From Frigoribacterium sp. Leaf263 (GTDB taxonomy: Bacteria > Actinomycetota > Actinomycetes > Actinomycetales > Microbacteriaceae): DNA of 64,000 bases. The stretch spans positions 635,135-699,134 of the forward strand of contig NZ_LMMO01000003.1 in NCBI RefSeq assembly GCF_001422285.1, in the 5' to 3' direction. This document shows, piece by piece, positions 53,462 to 59,437 of this stretch. A model generated the notes under the pieces. The model saw nothing but the letters and a program-made list of their open reading frames with translations, did not search any database and was not told the DNA's origin. Each line of letters starts with the position of its first letter. Within the stretch, counting starts at the first letter, position 1. The translations under genes and the position numbers were made by a program.

Positions 53462-53490
53462 TTGACATGGGTCCTAGTACTGCCCGAAAT
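53462..53490 (+). promoter_or_regulatory. candidate rpoD promoter P2
   Basis: A consensus TTGACA (53462-53467) is followed 17 bases later by the weak CGAAAT (53485-53490). A perfect -35 is rare in this window, so a second promoter or another sigma factor is possible. Confidence 0.45.
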
Positions 53491-53590
53491 CGACCGACGC
53501 GATCCTCTGCCGGTCGAGGTTCGACGGTTCCGGTCGTTCGACCACGAGCGTCGAGCCCGGACCGAGCGACGAGATGTGAAAGGTGATCGC

Positions 53591-54805
53591 ATGGCTACCC
53601 GCAGCAAAGCGACCGCAGCCTCCGACGAGACTGCGACCGACACGACCGAGGTCGCGGTCGAGACCCCCGTCAAGAAGGCGCCTGCGAAGCGCGCCCCCGC
53701 CAAGAAGGCGGCGCCCAAAGCCGCCAAGGCGGCCGACGAGGCACCGGCCGACGACGACGCCGAGTCGCCCGAGGTCGCCGTCGAGGCCGACGCCGAGACC
53801 CCTGACAAGGCACCCGAGGTCCTTCCCACAGGAGCTCTCGTCATCTCGCAGGACGACGACGACGAGATGCCGGTCTACTCGACCACCATCACGGGAGCCA
53901 CGGCCGACCCCGTCAAGGACTACCTCAAGCAGATCGGCAAGGTCGCCCTGCTGAACGCCGCGGAGGAGGTCGAGCTCGCGATGCGCATCGAGGCGGGACT
54001 CTTCGCCGAGGACAAGCTCGCCGCGAGCACCGGGCTCAGCAAGGAGCTCGAGCGCGAGCTCCGCTGGGTCGCCCGCGACGGTCAGCGCGCGAAGAGCCAC
54101 CTGCTCGGCGCCAACCTCCGACTCGTGGTCAGCCTGGCCAAGCGCTACACGGGGCGCGGCATGCAGTTCCTCGACCTCATCCAGGAAGGCAACCTCGGCC
54201 TCATCCGGGCCGTGGAGAAATTCGACTACACCAAGGGCTTCAAGTTCTCGACCTACGCCACCTGGTGGATCCGTCAGGCCATCACCCGCGCCATGGCCGA
54301 TCAGGCCCGCACGATCCGCATCCCCGTCCACATGGTCGAGGTCATCAACAAGCTCGCTCGGGTGCAGCGTCAGATGCTGCAGGACCTCGGACGCGAGCCC
54401 ACTCCCGAAGAGCTCTCACGCGAGCTCGACATGACGCCTGAGAAGGTCGTCGAGGTGCAGAAGTACGGGCGAGAGCCCATCTCGCTGCACACGCCTCTCG
54501 GTGAGGACGGCGACAGCGAGTTCGGCGACCTCATCGAGGACACCGAAGCGGTCGTCCCGGCCGACGCCGTGGGATTCACGATGCTGCAGAAGCAGCTCGA
54601 GTCGCTGCTCGACAGCCTGTCGGAGCGCGAGGCGGGCGTGATCCGCATGCGCTTCGGACTCGGCGACGGCATGCCGAAGACCCTCGACCAGATCGGCGAC
54701 ACCTTCGGCGTGACCCGCGAGCGGATCCGTCAGATCGAGTCGAAGACGATGGCCAAGCTGCGCCACCCGTCGCGATCGCAGTCGCTCCGCGACTACCTCG
54801 AGTAG
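53591..54805 (+). CDS. rpoD: principal RNA polymerase sigma factor
   Basis: A 404-residue sigma-70 (SigA/HrdB type). An N-terminal Lys/Ala/Pro-rich stretch ([12 protein letters not shown], about 25-45) and acidic segment precede region 1.2 ([16 protein letters not shown]). Region 2 holds [32 protein letters not shown] split across -10 contacts, and region 4.2 has [11 protein letters not shown] for the -35. It should recognise the TANNNT -10 boxes seen throughout. The start has AAAGGTG seven bases upstream. murT follows after 3 bases. Confidence 0.96.
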
Positions 54806-54808
54806 ACC

Positions 54809-56068
54809 GTGAAGTACGTCGTCCCCGTTCTCGCGGGCAGGCTCGTCCGCGCTGTCGCGCGTCTCCGAGGCGGTGGCTCCGCCTACCCGGGCCGAACTGT
54901 TCTGGCACTGGCACCCGACTTCCTCACGCACGTCTCGTCGCAGTTCGAGCGTGGCGTGGTCTTCGTGCTCGGCTCCAACGGCAAGTCGACCACGACCATG
55001 ATGCTGACCGAGACGCTGCGAGCCCACGGTCTCTCGGTGTTCACCAATCCGACCGGGGCCAACCTCCCCCAGGGCATCGCCTCGGCGTTCCTCCGCGAGG
55101 TCACGCCGTTCGGCGACGTCAAGCACGACATCGGGGTCATCGAGGTCGACGAGGCCTTCGCCGTCGAGCTGACCAAGTCGTTGAACCCCTCGACCGTGCT
55201 GATGCTCAACGTCCAGGTCGATCAGCTGTACCGCTTCTTCGAGACCGAGCGCGTCGGCACGATGATGACCGACACGGCCGCTCTGGCCTCGCAGGCCGTC
55301 GTCACCAATCGCGACGACCAGCACCTCGGGCCGTACGTGGCGCGCCCCGGCCAGACCGTCACCCGCTTCGGTGCGTCGCCCGAGATCGTCGCCGCGTCGC
55401 CCAACGGTCTGCAGAACGCGAACGACTTCACGCGGAGCGCCGACCAGACTCTCGCCGCCGAGGCCGAGGTCGTCGCCCTCGACGGCGCCGCAGCGACGAT
55501 CCGCGTCGGTGAAGTGACCGTCGAGGTCCAGCTCCCCGCCCGAGGTCTGCACTACGCCGTCGACGCCGCGGCGGCCCTTCAGACCGCGGCAGTCGTGCTC
55601 GGTGGATCGATCGACGCCGTCGCGGCGGCTCGGGCGTTCGACGGCATGAAGCCGGCTTACGGCCGCGGAGAGCGCATGTCCCTCGGCACGGACGACGCCG
55701 AGTTCATCATGTTCAAGAACGCAGCCAGTCTGCAGATGAACCTCGATGCTCTCCCGCAGGGCGTCGAGCAGGTGATGCTGGCCATCGATGAGGGCACCCC
55801 CGACATCTCGTGGATCTACGACATCGACTTCTCGCACCTCGACCACGTCGACGTCCTGGCGGGTGCCAAGGCATGGCAGCTGGCGCTGCGGCTCGAGCAC
55901 GAGGGCATCCCCGTCCACGTGATCGAAGAGGACATCTCGAAGGCGATCAGACTGATGCGGGCCCTGCCTTCACCCAGCGACAAGACGAAGCACTTCGTGA
56001 CGAACTACGAGCAGATGATGCTGGCACGCCGCATCCTGGGCCACCCCGACCTGGAGAAGAGCGCGTGA
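54809..56068 (+). CDS. murT: MurT-like Mur ligase without zinc ribbon
   Basis: 419 residues. GSNGKSTTT (55-63) is the ATP loop, NPTGANLPQGIASAF (80-94) and IEVDEAF (111-117) are MurT blocks, and the C-terminal DUF1727 domain has ISWIYDIDF. Canonical MurT carries a Cys4 zinc ribbon in the central domain; this protein has no cysteine at all and that segment is missing. The family amidates the alpha-carboxyl of D-Glu in lipid II with ammonia from GatD. Here the partner is catalytically dead (next entry), so another nucleophile may be used. GTG start; its TGA overlaps the gatD GTG. Confidence 0.85.
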   Translation: MKYVVPVLAGRLVRAVARLRGGGSAYPGRTVLALAPDFLTHVSSQFERGVVFVLGSNGKSTTTMMLTETLRAHGLSVFTNPTGANLPQGIASAFLREVTPFGDVKHDIGVIEVDEAFAVELTKSLNPSTVLMLNVQVDQLYRFFETERVGTMMTDTAALASQAVVTNRDDQHLGPYVARPGQTVTRFGASPEIVAASPNGLQNANDFTRSADQTLAAEAEVVALDGAAATIRVGEVTVEVQLPARGLHYAVDAAAALQTAAVVLGGSIDAVAAARAFDGMKPAYGRGERMSLGTDDAEFIMFKNAASLQMNLDALPQGVEQVMLAIDEGTPDISWIYDIDFSHLDHVDVLAGAKAWQLALRLEHEGIPVHVIEEDISKAIRLMRALPSPSDKTKHFVTNYEQMMLARRILGHPDLEKSA

Positions 56069-56820
56069 GCGACGATGTCCTGAGAATCGTCCACCTCTAC
56101 CCTGAGGAGCTCGGCGTCAGCGGAGACCGCGGGAACGTCACGACGCTCGTGGAGCGAGCCCGCCGAGCGGGCATCGCGTCCGAGGTGACCGAGTACCGGG
56201 TCGGTGACGGTGTGCCGATGGTGGCCGACGTCGTCGTGCTCGGTCACGGTCCGCTCTCCGGAGTCCGAGCCGTCAGCGCCGACGCGACACGTCTCCGTGA
56301 GTCCCTCGAGGGATTCGCTCAGTCGGGGGTACCCGTGGTCGCGGTCGGCGGAGGGCTCGAACTCCTGACGCGCGGAGTCGTCACGGTCGAGGGCGAGACG
56401 GTCGACGGGGTCGGCTTCTTCGACGCGCTGGTCCGACGAGGAGCCCCTCGTCGGACGAACTACTTCCAGGTGACGACGACCTACGGCGGCGATGAGCTCA
56501 CGCTCTTCGGCTTCGAGGATCATGCCGCTCATCTCGAGCTGGGCACGGGCTCGCAGCCCTTCGCGAGCGTCGTCCACGGTGGCGGCAACGGTGCCGACGG
56601 ACACGAGGGCGTCGTGCGGGGGACGTCCTTCGGCACACAGCTCAAGGGTCCGTTGCTGCCTCTGAACCCGGCACTGACCGACAGGGTCCTCAGATCAGCG
56701 CTCTCGCGTCGGGGCATCTCCTATGCGATCACCGAGGCGCATGAGAAGCTCGATCGCTACGCCGCGGCATCGCAACGGGTGATCGCCGACAACCTCGAGC
56801 GGTCCTTCAAGGCGATGTGA
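56065..56820 (+). CDS. gatD: GatD-like protein lacking catalytic residues
   Basis: A 251-residue class I (CobB/CobQ-type) amidotransferase homologue. Fold motifs are kept: LYPEELGVSGDRGN near 11-24, GVPVVAVGGGLELL near 88-101 and GTQLKGPLLPLNP near 190-202. The nucleophile Cys (94 in Staphylococcus GatD) is Gly 95 and the catalytic His (189 there) is Lys 194; there is no Cys anywhere. It cannot hydrolyse glutamine by the known mechanism, so it is probably a structural or regulatory partner of MurT. Start GTG 56065 overlaps the murT stop. Ends in a terminator. Confidence 0.85.
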   Translation: MSDDVLRIVHLYPEELGVSGDRGNVTTLVERARRAGIASEVTEYRVGDGVPMVADVVVLGHGPLSGVRAVSADATRLRESLEGFAQSGVPVVAVGGGLELLTRGVVTVEGETVDGVGFFDALVRRGAPRRTNYFQVTTTYGGDELTLFGFEDHAAHLELGTGSQPFASVVHGGGNGADGHEGVVRGTSFGTQLKGPLLPLNPALTDRVLRSALSRRGISYAITEAHEKLDRYAAASQRVIADNLERSFKAM

Positions 56821-56890: not shown

Positions 56891-57118
56891 TCAGTGCTCC
56901 GAGAGCTTCGAGCTCTCGTCGAGCCACTCGATCGCGGTCGGCTGCAGCTTGTCCTTCAACTTGGCGCCGTGGTGTGCGCAGAAGAAGAGCTGTCCGGTTG
57001 CCAGGGTCGCACGGATGTACGCCTGGGCTCCGCAGCTGTCGCAGCGGTCTGCCGCACTGAGCTGGTAGCGGGAGCCGAGCTCATCGACGGCGGTCTGGTC
57101 GGTGGCCATCTGAGTCAT
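56891..57118 (-). CDS. DUF7455 small zinc-binding protein
   Basis: 75 residues. RCDSCGAQAYIRATL and LFFCAHHGAKL give a C-x2-C plus C-x2-H zinc site, typical of DUF7455, a small actinobacterial family near sigA. GGAGGAG stands six bases before the ATG. No function is known; the size and zinc site suggest an RNA polymerase or nucleic-acid partner, but that is inference. Confidence 0.85.
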   Translation of the reverse strand: MTQMATDQTAVDELGSRYQLSAADRCDSCGAQAYIRATLATGQLFFCAHHGAKLKDKLQPTAIEWLDESSKLSEH

Positions 57119-57270
57119 GGGGTGCTCCTCCTGACGGTGGTGCTGTGGATACGTGACACTCATCAAAACACGCCCACGAGACGAAGGTGAGACATTCGGA
57201 CGTATTTCGCTCATCGCGTAGCTGCTCGATGACGAGAGAGTGTCGGGGCGACCGTGTCGGTGCCCCTCGT

Positions 57271-57276
57271 TACCAT
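57271..57276 (+). promoter_or_regulatory. -10 box of parE
   Basis: TACCAT about 64 bases upstream of the TTG start. It lies downstream of GTG 57254 and so argues against an earlier start. Confidence 0.5.
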
Positions 57277-57340
57277 TGAACCCGGCCACCGCCTCCGGAA
57301 TTCCCCGTCCGCGGTCGCCCGCACGCGTCAGGAGCACCCA

Positions 57341-59437
57341 TTGGCCACGTCCGACTACTCGGCCCGTCATCTGTCCGTCCTCGAGGGCCTCGAGGCGGTC
57401 CGCAAGCGACCCGGCATGTACATCGGCAGCACGGACTCCCGCGGTCTCATGCACTGCCTCTGGGAGATCATCGACAACTCCGTCGACGAGGCCCTCGGGG
57501 GGCACGGAGACTCGATCGACGTCGTCCTGCATGCCGACGACAGCGTCGAGGTCCGAGACACCGCCCGGGGCATCCCGGTCGACATCGAGCCCAAGACGGG
57601 ACTGACCGGCGTCGAGGTCGTCTTCACGAAGCTGCACGCCGGAGGCAAGTTCGGCGGCGGTTCGTACGGCTCCTCCGGAGGTCTGCACGGCGTCGGAGCC
57701 TCCGTCGTGAACGCCCTCTCGGAGCGGCTCGACGTCGAGGTCGACCGCAACGGCAAGACCTACGCCATGTCGTTCCGTCGCGGCGAGCCGGGTACCTTCG
57801 AGGACGACGGCGAGCCGACGCCGGACGCCCCGTTCACCCCGTTCGTGTCCGGCAGCGTCCTCCGCGAGACGGGCAAGGTGAAGCGCGGGGTCACCGGAAC
57901 GCGCATCCGCTATTGGGCCGACCGTCAGATCTTCACCCGCGGCGCGGCCTTCCAGCCCGACGACCTCACCGGCCGCGCGCGCCAGACGGCCTTCCTCATC
58001 CCGGGTCTCACGCTCCGGATCCGCGACGAGCGGCCCGGATCGCTGACGGACGGCGGCTTCCCTCTCGAGAGCACGTTCCGGTTCGACGGGGGGATCAGCG
58101 AGTACGTCGAGTTCCTGGCTCCCGACGCGCCCGTGACCGACACCTGGCGCATGACGGGAACGGGGTCGTACACCGAGACGGTCCCGGTGCTGACGGACGG
58201 CGGTGCGATGGTGGCCACCGAGCTGACCCGCGAGTGCGAGGTCGACATCGCGCTCCGCTGGGGCGGCGGTTACGAGACCGTCTTCCGCAGCTTCGTCAAC
58301 ATCATCTCGACGCCGAAGGGCGGTTCGCACCAGGCGGGGTTCGAAGCCGGCCTCCTGAAGTTCCTCCGGCAGCAGGTCGAGCAGAACGCCCGTCGACTCA
58401 AGGTCGGCACCGACAAGATCGACAAGGACGATGTGCTCGCCGGTCTGACCGCCGTCCTGACCGTCCGACTGCCCGAACCCCAGTTCGAAGGGCAGACGAA
58501 GGAGATCCTCGGCACTCCCGCGGTCCGGGCGATCGTCGCCAACGTCGTGGCCACGCAGTTCGCCGAGCGCTTCGCCTCGACGCGGCGCGAGGACAAGGCG
58601 CAGACGGCCCTCGTGCTCGACAAGGTCGTCGCCGAGATGAAGTCGCGCATCGCCGCGCGCGCCCACAAGGAGACGCAACGACGCAAGAACGCCCTCGAGA
58701 ACTCCTCGCTGCCCGCGAAGCTCGTCGACTGCCGCTCGAACGACGTCGCCAGCAGCGAGCTCTTCATCGTGGAGGGGGATTCGGCGCTGGGGACGGCGAA
58801 GGTCGCTCGCAACAGCGAGTTCCAGGCTCTTCTCCCCATCCGGGGGAAGATCCTGAACGTCCAGAAGGCCTCGGTCAGCGACATGCTCTCGAACGTCGAG
58901 TGCGCCTCCATCATCCAGGTCCTCGGCGCGGGGTCCGGCCGGTCCTTCGACCTCAGCGCGGCTCGGTACGGCAAGGTCATCATCATGAGCGACGCCGACG
59001 TCGACGGTGCGCACATCCGCACGTTGCTCCTGACGCTCTTCTTCCGGTACATGCGTCCGATGATCGAGGCGGGTCGGGTCTTCGCGGCCGTGCCGCCCCT
59101 CCATCGCGTGGTCGTCATGCACCCCGGAAGCAAGCCCAACGAGACGATCTACACGTACTCCGAGAAGGAGCTCCACGGGGTGCTCGCCGGGCTGAAGCGC
59201 ACCAGCAAGAAGTTCCAGGATCCGATCCAGCGGTACAAGGGTCTCGGTGAGATGGACGCCGAGCAGCTCCGGACGACGACGATGGAGCGTCAGAACCGCA
59301 TGCTGCGACGCGTCAAGGTCGACGACGCCGAGAATGCGGCGCGCGTGTTCGAGCTCCTGATGGGCAACGAGGTCGCCCCGCGCAAGGAGTTCATCATCGA
59401 CGGCGCGGGTCTCAGTCGCGACCGCATCGACGTCTGA
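57341..59437 (+). CDS. parE: DNA topoisomerase IV subunit B
   Basis: A 698-residue GHKL ATPase/TOPRIM subunit. EIIDNSVDEAL near residue 45 and GLHGVGASVVNAL near 115 are ATP-site motifs; VEGDSALGTAK near 475 and DADVDGAHIRTLLLT near 550 are TOPRIM motifs, and KGLGEMD near 630 is conserved. It starts at TTG 57341 with AGGAG six bases upstream. It converges on parC, and the partner plus the absence of dnaA/recF context supports ParE over GyrB. The pair decatenates chromosomes. Confidence 0.92.
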   Translation: MATSDYSARHLSVLEGLEAVRKRPGMYIGSTDSRGLMHCLWEIIDNSVDEALGGHGDSIDVVLHADDSVEVRDTARGIPVDIEPKTGLTGVEVVFTKLHAGGKFGGGSYGSSGGLHGVGASVVNALSERLDVEVDRNGKTYAMSFRRGEPGTFEDDGEPTPDAPFTPFVSGSVLRETGKVKRGVTGTRIRYWADRQIFTRGAAFQPDDLTGRARQTAFLIPGLTLRIRDERPGSLTDGGFPLESTFRFDGGISEYVEFLAPDAPVTDTWRMTGTGSYTETVPVLTDGGAMVATELTRECEVDIALRWGGGYETVFRSFVNIISTPKGGSHQAGFEAGLLKFLRQQVEQNARRLKVGTDKIDKDDVLAGLTAVLTVRLPEPQFEGQTKEILGTPAVRAIVANVVATQFAERFASTRREDKAQTALVLDKVVAEMKSRIAARAHKETQRRKNALENSSLPAKLVDCRSNDVASSELFIVEGDSALGTAKVARNSEFQALLPIRGKILNVQKASVSDMLSNVECASIIQVLGAGSGRSFDLSAARYGKVIIMSDADVDGAHIRTLLLTLFFRYMRPMIEAGRVFAAVPPLHRVVVMHPGSKPNETIYTYSEKELHGVLAGLKRTSKKFQDPIQRYKGLGEMDAEQLRTTTMERQNRMLRRVKVDDAENAARVFELLMGNEVAPRKEFIIDGAGLSRDRIDV

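Follow-up and report, generated by a model that had tools for sequence, protein, structure and literature searches.

What is a MurT–GatD pair for when its GatD has lost the catalytic cysteine and histidine? The question is raised by the window analysed here, a stretch of 64,000 nucleotides from Frigoribacterium sp. Leaf263 (contig NZ_LMMO01000003.1, positions 635,135 to 699,134), in which such a pair lies directly behind rpoD. The answer favoured here, with a probability of roughly 0.6, is that the pair is a glutaminase-dead MurT–GatD whose MurT attaches an amino acid, most likely a D-diamino acid, to D-Glu at its alpha-carboxyl; we are less sure of the specific nucleophile than of the mechanism. 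Bacterial taxonomy has long made use of group-B peptidoglycan, whose bridge begins at D-Glu. The features on which the argument turns are the following, with positions given within the window.

53462..54805, + strand: rpoD, open reading frame taken from its first possible start, directly 5' of murT
54809..56068, + strand: murT of the class called M-type below, 419 amino acids, GTG start, with a Mur ligase middle domain and MurT_C
54983..54985, + strand: codon of the P-loop lysine Lys59 (GSNGKSTT) of MurT
55802..55804, + strand: codon of MurT Asp332 (S. aureus Asp349), the preceding DNxxADGRD stretch reading DEGTPD
56065..56820, + strand: gatD without the catalytic cysteine and histidine, 251 amino acids, GTG start, GATase_3
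56347..56349, + strand: GatD Gly95 codon GGC, at the place of the catalytic Cys94
56449..56451, + strand: GatD Arg129 codon (S. aureus Arg128, the glutamine-sequestering arginine), retained
56644..56646, + strand: GatD Lys194 codon AAG, at the place of the catalytic His189

The arrangement described in the first-pass annotation, with both genes behind rpoD and a GTGA overlap, is borne out by the open reading frame coordinates, three bases separating the rpoD stop codon from murT. Its account of the residues also holds: neither window protein contains a single cysteine, and Gly95 and Lys194 of GatD stand at Cys94 and His189 in the alignment to the solved S. aureus and S. pneumoniae chains. Both proteins exceed the Pfam gathering scores of their families (MurT with 39.4 bits for PF08353, MurT_C, and 28.6 bits for PF08245; GatD with 61.1 bits for GATase_3). 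The best solved homologue of MurT is 6fqb_A (E 9.8e-27), and GatD has the solved homologue 6gs2_A (E 5.8e-21). The NCBIfam equivalog cut-offs are missed widely (99.2 versus 800, 87.2 versus 450 and 77.6 versus 400 bits).

A second, intact MurT–GatD or an A-type wall had been named beforehand as observations that would tell against a ligase of B-type bridges. The genome, of 3.24 Mb and 99.95% complete, has one MurT_C match, and no second MurT was found; its 16S rRNA is 99.3% identical to that of Frigoribacterium sp. ACAM 257, and Frigoribacterium is listed with D-Lys and B2-beta (PMC7033078, table 3), which at the level of the genus contradicts an A-type wall. Two more GATase_3 matches occur in the genome, L062 (61 bits with the GatD profile, cysteine present in TCAGL) and L063 (16 bits), with no MurT in the 3.2 kb read around either; by our reading, L062 is a putative PdxT-type protein. 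The genome gave no match to FemAB (PF02388; the FemXAB bridge builders) at E 0.001, and none to the CofE-like profile described below at E 1e-20.

Is the loss in the window part of a pattern? Relatives were collected with a profile, A1, built from 40 cysteine-less MurTs, which at E 1e-15 matched MurTs of one kind or another in 98 of 120 family genomes, as compared with 84 of 120 for PF08353 alone; the 15 best candidates were scored per genome, so a very divergent MurT could escape. GatD was read for 169 pairs, to which the 14 genomes matched by A1 only do not belong. Classes were defined by the GatD cysteine column and the motif, and after exclusion of copies or fragments (L061, L396, L400) they comprise 105 M-type (Cys-less), 51 CAN (canonical, no ribbon), 3 CANZ (canonical, double CxxC), 8 T3 (a second Cys-less kind) and 2 odd pairs. 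Genomes reached by two routes are counted twice in the class, slot and neighbour-gene locus counts; for residue counts identical MurTs were removed, which left 100 unique M-type and 52 unique Cys-bearing pairs. Since M-type is defined by the cysteine column, the finding that 0 of 100 keep the cysteine is a definition, and the MurT tree is the sole test. This tree, built by a quick method from 159 unique MurTs of at least 350 amino acids with GatD not used, and with long branches present, places all 97 M-type MurTs on one side of one branch (Shimodaira–Hasegawa-like approximate likelihood ratio test, SH-aLRT, 100), with no Cys-bearing pair among them. The 8 T3 MurTs likewise lie on one side of one branch (SH-aLRT 97). 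As GatD played no part in the tree, the pattern of cysteine loss appears to be more than chance. The complete absence of cysteine noted for the window does not extend to all relatives, being found in 72 of the 100 unique M-type pairs (aligned parts only).

The T3 pairs (L419:3892-6011; L016-L021, L096, L398) have the GatD motifs FTHNA[LA]EV and GTSL[IL]GP; their MurTs keep the CxxC motifs, and the Asp349 place is Asn in 7 of 8. With regard to the zinc ribbon, its absence from the window MurT had been offered as evidence and was rejected as such: the double CxxC is also absent in 49 of the 52 unique Cys-bearing pairs (3 of the 49 with one CxxC) and present in 3, in a set made up of the best-scoring loci and no random sample. 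The zinc finger of MurT has been found in a subset only (PMC6113224). A candidate class of phage-borne copies was dropped, the 95 pattern matches in viral contigs having yielded 0 confirmed cases.

The glutaminase site of M-type GatDs is dismantled beyond the defining cysteine. In the 100 unique rows the oxyanion Gly60 is kept in 2 and the gate Tyr17 in 0, while the Arg128 place holds R in 91, a gap in 5 and another residue in 4. Histidine is kept at the His189 place in 61 of 100, so that the loss seen in the window is not the rule that the first-pass annotation made of it. The adenosine triphosphate (ATP) site of MurT is retained, Lys59 and Glu108 both being kept in 97 of 97 readable unique rows (3 gaps), and the Asp349 place is Asp in 100 of 100. 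In CAN loci all these residues, Gly60 and Tyr17 included, are kept in 51 of 51. By its P-loop lysine and Glu108 the pair thus falls among ATP-dependent Mur-type amide ligases, and of the residues of isoglutaminyl synthase, Cys94 and His189 are missing from the window pair and Gly60 and Tyr17 from nearly all of its relatives. The DNxxADGRD stretch before Asp349 is shortened and rewritten in M-type MurTs (DEGTPD, GSDVRD) and lengthened in T3. This motif has been named alongside the lysine-recognising motif of MurE and proposed to engage the stem-peptide lysine (PMC6113224), and its rewriting is therefore compatible with a change of nucleophile and also with a change of stem peptide. GatD aligns to the profile over only 84-142 residues in six small genomes (1.1-1.7 Mb; L026, L029, L071, L079, L100, L104), the part with the histidine being unaligned.

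Why would a dead glutaminase be kept? The ratio of nonsynonymous to synonymous substitution rates in nine hand-chosen M-type pairs is 0.08-0.25 for murT and 0.12-0.29 for gatD. Both genes are under purifying selection, and the dead GatD is therefore no decaying gene in those nine pairs. In S. aureus, MurT without GatD is inactive, and the GatD-C94G mutant, which has the glycine seen at this place in the window, loses the glutamine-dependent activity and keeps an NH3-dependent one at pH 8.5, with none at pH 7.5 (PMC3266927). These results suggest that MurT requires GatD as a partner even when GatD has no chemistry of its own, and that ammonia is a poor substrate at neutral pH. The M-type complex would no longer produce ammonia from glutamine, and GatD would be retained as a non-catalytic partner required for the activity of MurT. 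MurT would use ATP to activate a carboxylate, presumably the D-Glu alpha-carboxyl in a peptidoglycan precursor, and would link this to an amino acid through the latter's amino group, which would be the first step of a B-type bridge. The nucleophile would most likely be the D-diamino acid found in B2-type bridges, which for Frigoribacterium, to judge from the chemistry of the genus, would be D-Lys. What we infer for the pair is the identity of its substrate, nucleophile and product and its place in wall synthesis.

The same mutant lends itself to another explanation, in which the dead GatD is a scaffold and MurT, with its ATP site intact, amidates D-Glu with free NH3 from the cytosol or from another glutaminase, as the C94G complex does at pH 8.5. 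Such an amidase seems unlikely, given the lack of NH3-dependent activity at pH 7.5, and it would leave unexplained both the alternation with another ligase and the racemase context described below. Furthermore, B-type bridges use the D-Glu alpha-carboxyl, and an amide there would block them.

The chromosomal position is the second line of evidence. M-type pairs are the immediate downstream neighbours of rpoD in 99 of 105 loci; of the other six, 4 have murT within 1.4 kb of it, and in 2 the stretch read contains no rpoD. T3 pairs follow rpoD directly in 8 of 8 loci, as compared with 0 of 54 Cys-bearing pairs and 0 of 2 odd pairs. In the window the far end of this slot is formed by two further genes.

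56891..57130, - strand: small Cys-containing protein, an open reading frame by reading, with approximate start
57254..59437, + strand: GyrB/ParE-type topoisomerase subunit, named by reading, the downstream anchor of the slot

The gene for the small Cys-containing protein, tentatively labelled DUF7455, was seen in 57 of 105 M-type loci, many of which stop short of its place; the GyrB/ParE-type gene was matched in 32 of 32 named genomes searched.

In MurT-less genomes a CofE-like gene can occupy the place after rpoD (L402:3455-4150, L403-L407, L409-L412, L417, L418), as it does directly in 13 of 17 loci; one such protein scored against Pfam matched PF01996 with 48.6 bits. Readings of the rpoD-gyrB/parE slot in 20 named genomes gave 12 with a CofE-like gene, 1 with T3 and 7 with neither, namely Klugiella, Leucobacter, Amnibacterium, two Agrococcus, Aurantimicrobium and Tessaracoccus (rpoD outside the stretch read). 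A CofE-like profile, A3, run on the same 120 family genomes, matched 17, comprising 16 of the 22 MurT-less and 1 of the 98 MurT-bearing genomes (Fisher value 3.9e-14, which ignores shared ancestry). Both states occur within the genera g7, g9 and g13, and the M-type genome G076 and the CofE-like Frigoribacterium CG_9.8 share 99.8% 16S identity. This near-exclusive pattern would be expected if one ligase had been replaced by another with a similar function. The adjacency to rpoD in 99 of 105 loci could also be taken as a sign of a non-wall or regulatory role tied to that gene; with the ATP site conserved in a Mur-ligase fold, another amide ligase taking the same place and racemase genes nearby, we regard this as very improbable.

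The neighbouring genes bear on the nucleophile. A split alanine-racemase-like pair, Alr1 and Alr2, adjoins the M-type pairs in 9 of 20 larger neighbourhoods, a count that is no rate, as the 20 were hand-picked, partly for racemase matches already seen. The same pair adjoins CofE-like genes at 4 of 5 Microbacterium loci, at 2 of 2 Homoserinibacter loci and in CG_9.8 (Alr1/Alr2 loci: L402:5305-7046, L439, L441, L443, L446, L452, L453, L455-L457). All 18 Alr1 sequences contain [VI]SYG, and in all 13 that are readable at the pyridoxal phosphate (PLP) place the lysine is missing; of 20 Alr2 sequences, 18 match the lysine motif (by a loose pattern), 0 contain [VI]SYG and 3 contain a bare SYG, one weak Alr2 match (L429) having been dropped between motif counts. 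The PLP lysine and the SYG tyrosine are presumably the catalytic pair of alanine racemase, and to judge from these motifs Alr1 (tyrosine) and Alr2 (PLP lysine) could form one composite active site, possibly as an obligate heterodimer. In Microbacterium sp. RU33B a diaminobutyrate-2-oxoglutarate transaminase gene lies alone between rpoD and murT (L439:4215-5498), with the racemase genes after gatD; it scores 623 bits with NCBIfam PRK09264 (cut-off 438) and 594.7 with the EctB model (cut-off 552.2), and this is the only one of the 20 larger M-type neighbourhoods in which such a transaminase was seen. Transaminase, racemase and amide ligase in a row are what a bridge with a D-diamino acid would need.

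Glycine, which the first-pass annotation named besides a diamino acid, fits this setting poorly as the favoured nucleophile. A complex that adds Gly, the start of a B1-type bridge, would perform known chemistry, since Gly on the D-Glu alpha-carboxyl has been described (PMC11555704). A racemase and a diaminobutyrate transaminase would be needless for it, and the three M-type genera whose type is given in the papers cited here are B2, namely Frigoribacterium, Cryobacterium (diaminobutyrate, DAB; B2-gamma; PMC7033078) and Herbiconiux (D- and L-DAB, B2-gamma; PMC10011130). A glycine ligase is accordingly considered improbable.

A later bridge step has also to be weighed, in which the pair would act after another enzyme or on a different carboxyl. 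An ATP-grasp gene (PF14397) lies on the opposite strand beside CofE-like and T3 genes (L402:4208-5224 (-), L419:6019-7020 (-)), being present at 10 of 12 and 12 of 17 CofE-like loci and at least 4 of 8 T3 loci, so two ligases may act in series. The genome G053 (L438:1489-2205, L022) has three adjacent genes, for a CofE-like protein, a MurT of the odd class that has CxxC motifs, and an odd GatD; the stretch read contains no rpoD, and this arrangement would also fit two ligases in series. Around M-type pairs themselves neither ATP-grasp nor CofE-like genes were found in the 20 larger neighbourhoods (0 of 20), and the 105 shorter loci have them in 1 and 0 cases, respectively, which makes a later step or another acceptor similarly unlikely to the use of free ammonia.

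From slot, alternation and neighbours together a broader picture may be drawn, held more tentatively and at slightly less than even odds. The rpoD-gyrB/parE slot could be a swappable module for starting the group-B bridge, in which three separately descended ligases (M-type, the ribbon-keeping T3 and the F420-fold CofE-like) would join a D-diamino acid to D-Glu, and the split Alr1/Alr2 racemase would make the D-amino acid.

How well does this agree with wall chemistry across the family? Named genomes were scanned with a 16S pattern whose 20-base core is shared by 64 of 68 sequences of the family and absent from all 27 others; the scan gave at least 117 loci, some from other families such as Propionibacteriaceae and Cellulomonas, and 98 of the genomes so listed were searched with A1 at E 1e-15. 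Among the matches listed, to which all named-genome counts in this paragraph refer, the 98 genomes comprise 38 M-type, 7 canonical only (Leucobacter 5, Amnibacterium, Agrococcus jejuensis), 1 CANZ (Aurantimicrobium), 1 T3 (Schumannella) and 51 without a MurT match. M-type genera include Clavibacter, Leifsonia, Herbiconiux, Frigoribacterium, Curtobacterium, Labedella, Glaciibacter, Cryobacterium, Agromyces, Mycetocola, Rathayibacter and Naasia. No MurT was found at this threshold in 40 of 42 Microbacterium genomes, a genus with L-Lys, D-Orn or DAB in its walls (PMC10757982), and Leucobacter, with DAB and cross-link type B (PMC4804768, table), has an intact canonical pair in 5 of 5. The claim that cysteine loss marks all B-type Microbacteriaceae is thereby lost, and with it the rule that a B-type wall means a Cys-less pair. 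A second rule, M-type for B2 and CofE-like for B1, was likewise not upheld (PMC7033078, PMC10757982). As CofE-like genera include B2 ones and the canonical Leucobacter is B-type, B-type walls do not require the M-type pair, and the pair does not mark B2 cleanly. Published types also exist for Salinibacterium (Lys/Orn, type B; PMC7033078) and Rhodoluna (B2-beta with D-Ala-D-Dab; PMC4156110). As a separate observation, the Microbacteriaceae-typical 16S pattern was met in records titled Planococcus sp. APC 4015 and a Desulfovibrio metagenome-assembled genome (L328, L288), the former also with an M-type pair (L386); both records are probably misnamed or contaminated.

Several of these results weigh against MurT as the ligase that starts the bridge. 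With respect to chemistry, M-type and CofE-like do not sort by B1 and B2, Homoserinimonas (D-Orn, B2-beta; PMC7033078) being CofE-like and Microbacterium varying. The intact pairs of the B-type Leucobacter point the same way, and its single slot read (L413) holds neither ligase. Leifsonia aquatica and Leifsonia sp. TF02-11 (L375, L399) have a canonical Cys pair besides the M-type pair, and six of the 22 MurT-less family genomes gave no CofE-like match either. The side-by-side ligases of G053 indicate that MurT–GatD and CofE-like need not be equivalent. At the level of residues, the histidine and Arg128 that so many GatDs keep do not fit a pure scaffold role, and the rewriting of DNxxADGRD may be due to a change of stem peptide instead of nucleophile. 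Finally, queries for racemase, transaminase, ATP-grasp and CofE-like genes gave 0 matches in the 64-kb window, and the transaminase model matched in RU33B is that of ectoine synthesis (EctB).

The odds given for an amino-acid ligase were left unchanged by the corrected counts (the 9 of 20 neighbourhoods, the circular classes and the ribbon), because the tree, the slot and the CofE-like alternation carry the case. The original idea of such a ligase for B-type bridges has thus gained indirect support from a dismantled glutaminase site under purifying selection, from the alternation and from racemase (once transaminase) neighbours. No paper linking murT-gatD genes to B-type peptidoglycan was found among the open-licence papers listed. 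If the reading of the slot as a module is true, it would supply missing enzymology of B-type peptidoglycan. The pair would also exemplify an amidotransferase that lost its ammonia supply and turned amino-acid ligase, and the slot a place in the chromosome where unrelated enzymes replace one another. The question can be tested directly, since there is a candidate of two genes with solved relatives, a published C94G equivalent and, in sister genera, an alternative ligase.

How, then, does the pair compare with known systems? With MurT–GatD of S. aureus and S. pneumoniae it shares the gene order, the overlap, the domains Mur_ligase_M, MurT_C and GATase_3, the P-loop lysine, the acidic residues, Asp349 of MurT and Arg128 and Asp19 of GatD. 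Unlike that isoglutaminyl synthase, it has no catalytic cysteine or histidine in the window, its DNxxADGRD stretch is rewritten, its M-type relatives have nearly all lost the oxyanion and gate residues, and its scores fall far under the equivalog cut-offs. The best-supported description is that the M-type pair acts like a Mur ligase, descends from isoglutaminyl synthase and fails the catalytic test of that family, and it is therefore not called one. MurE and the other amino-acid-adding Mur ligases share with it the middle and C-terminal Mur ligase fold and presumably an acyl-phosphate mechanism; they differ in that MurT is without the UDP-binding N-terminal domain (PMC6113224) and is here paired with GatD. 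The CofE-like ligases (PF01996) resemble the M-type pair in the slot after rpoD, in the racemase genes near some loci and in the amide bond that they presumably form from a carboxylate and an amino acid, but they belong to an unrelated family, consist of a single protein of about 231 amino acids without GatD, and score far below the equivalog cut-off of F420 CofE (32.5 versus 180.65 bits). In pseudomurein archaea, too, a MurT relative occurs without a glutaminase (PMC11915815); there, in the archaea with MurT-like proteins only, the GatD homologue is absent according to the same source, whereas in the M-type pair it has been kept, but dead.

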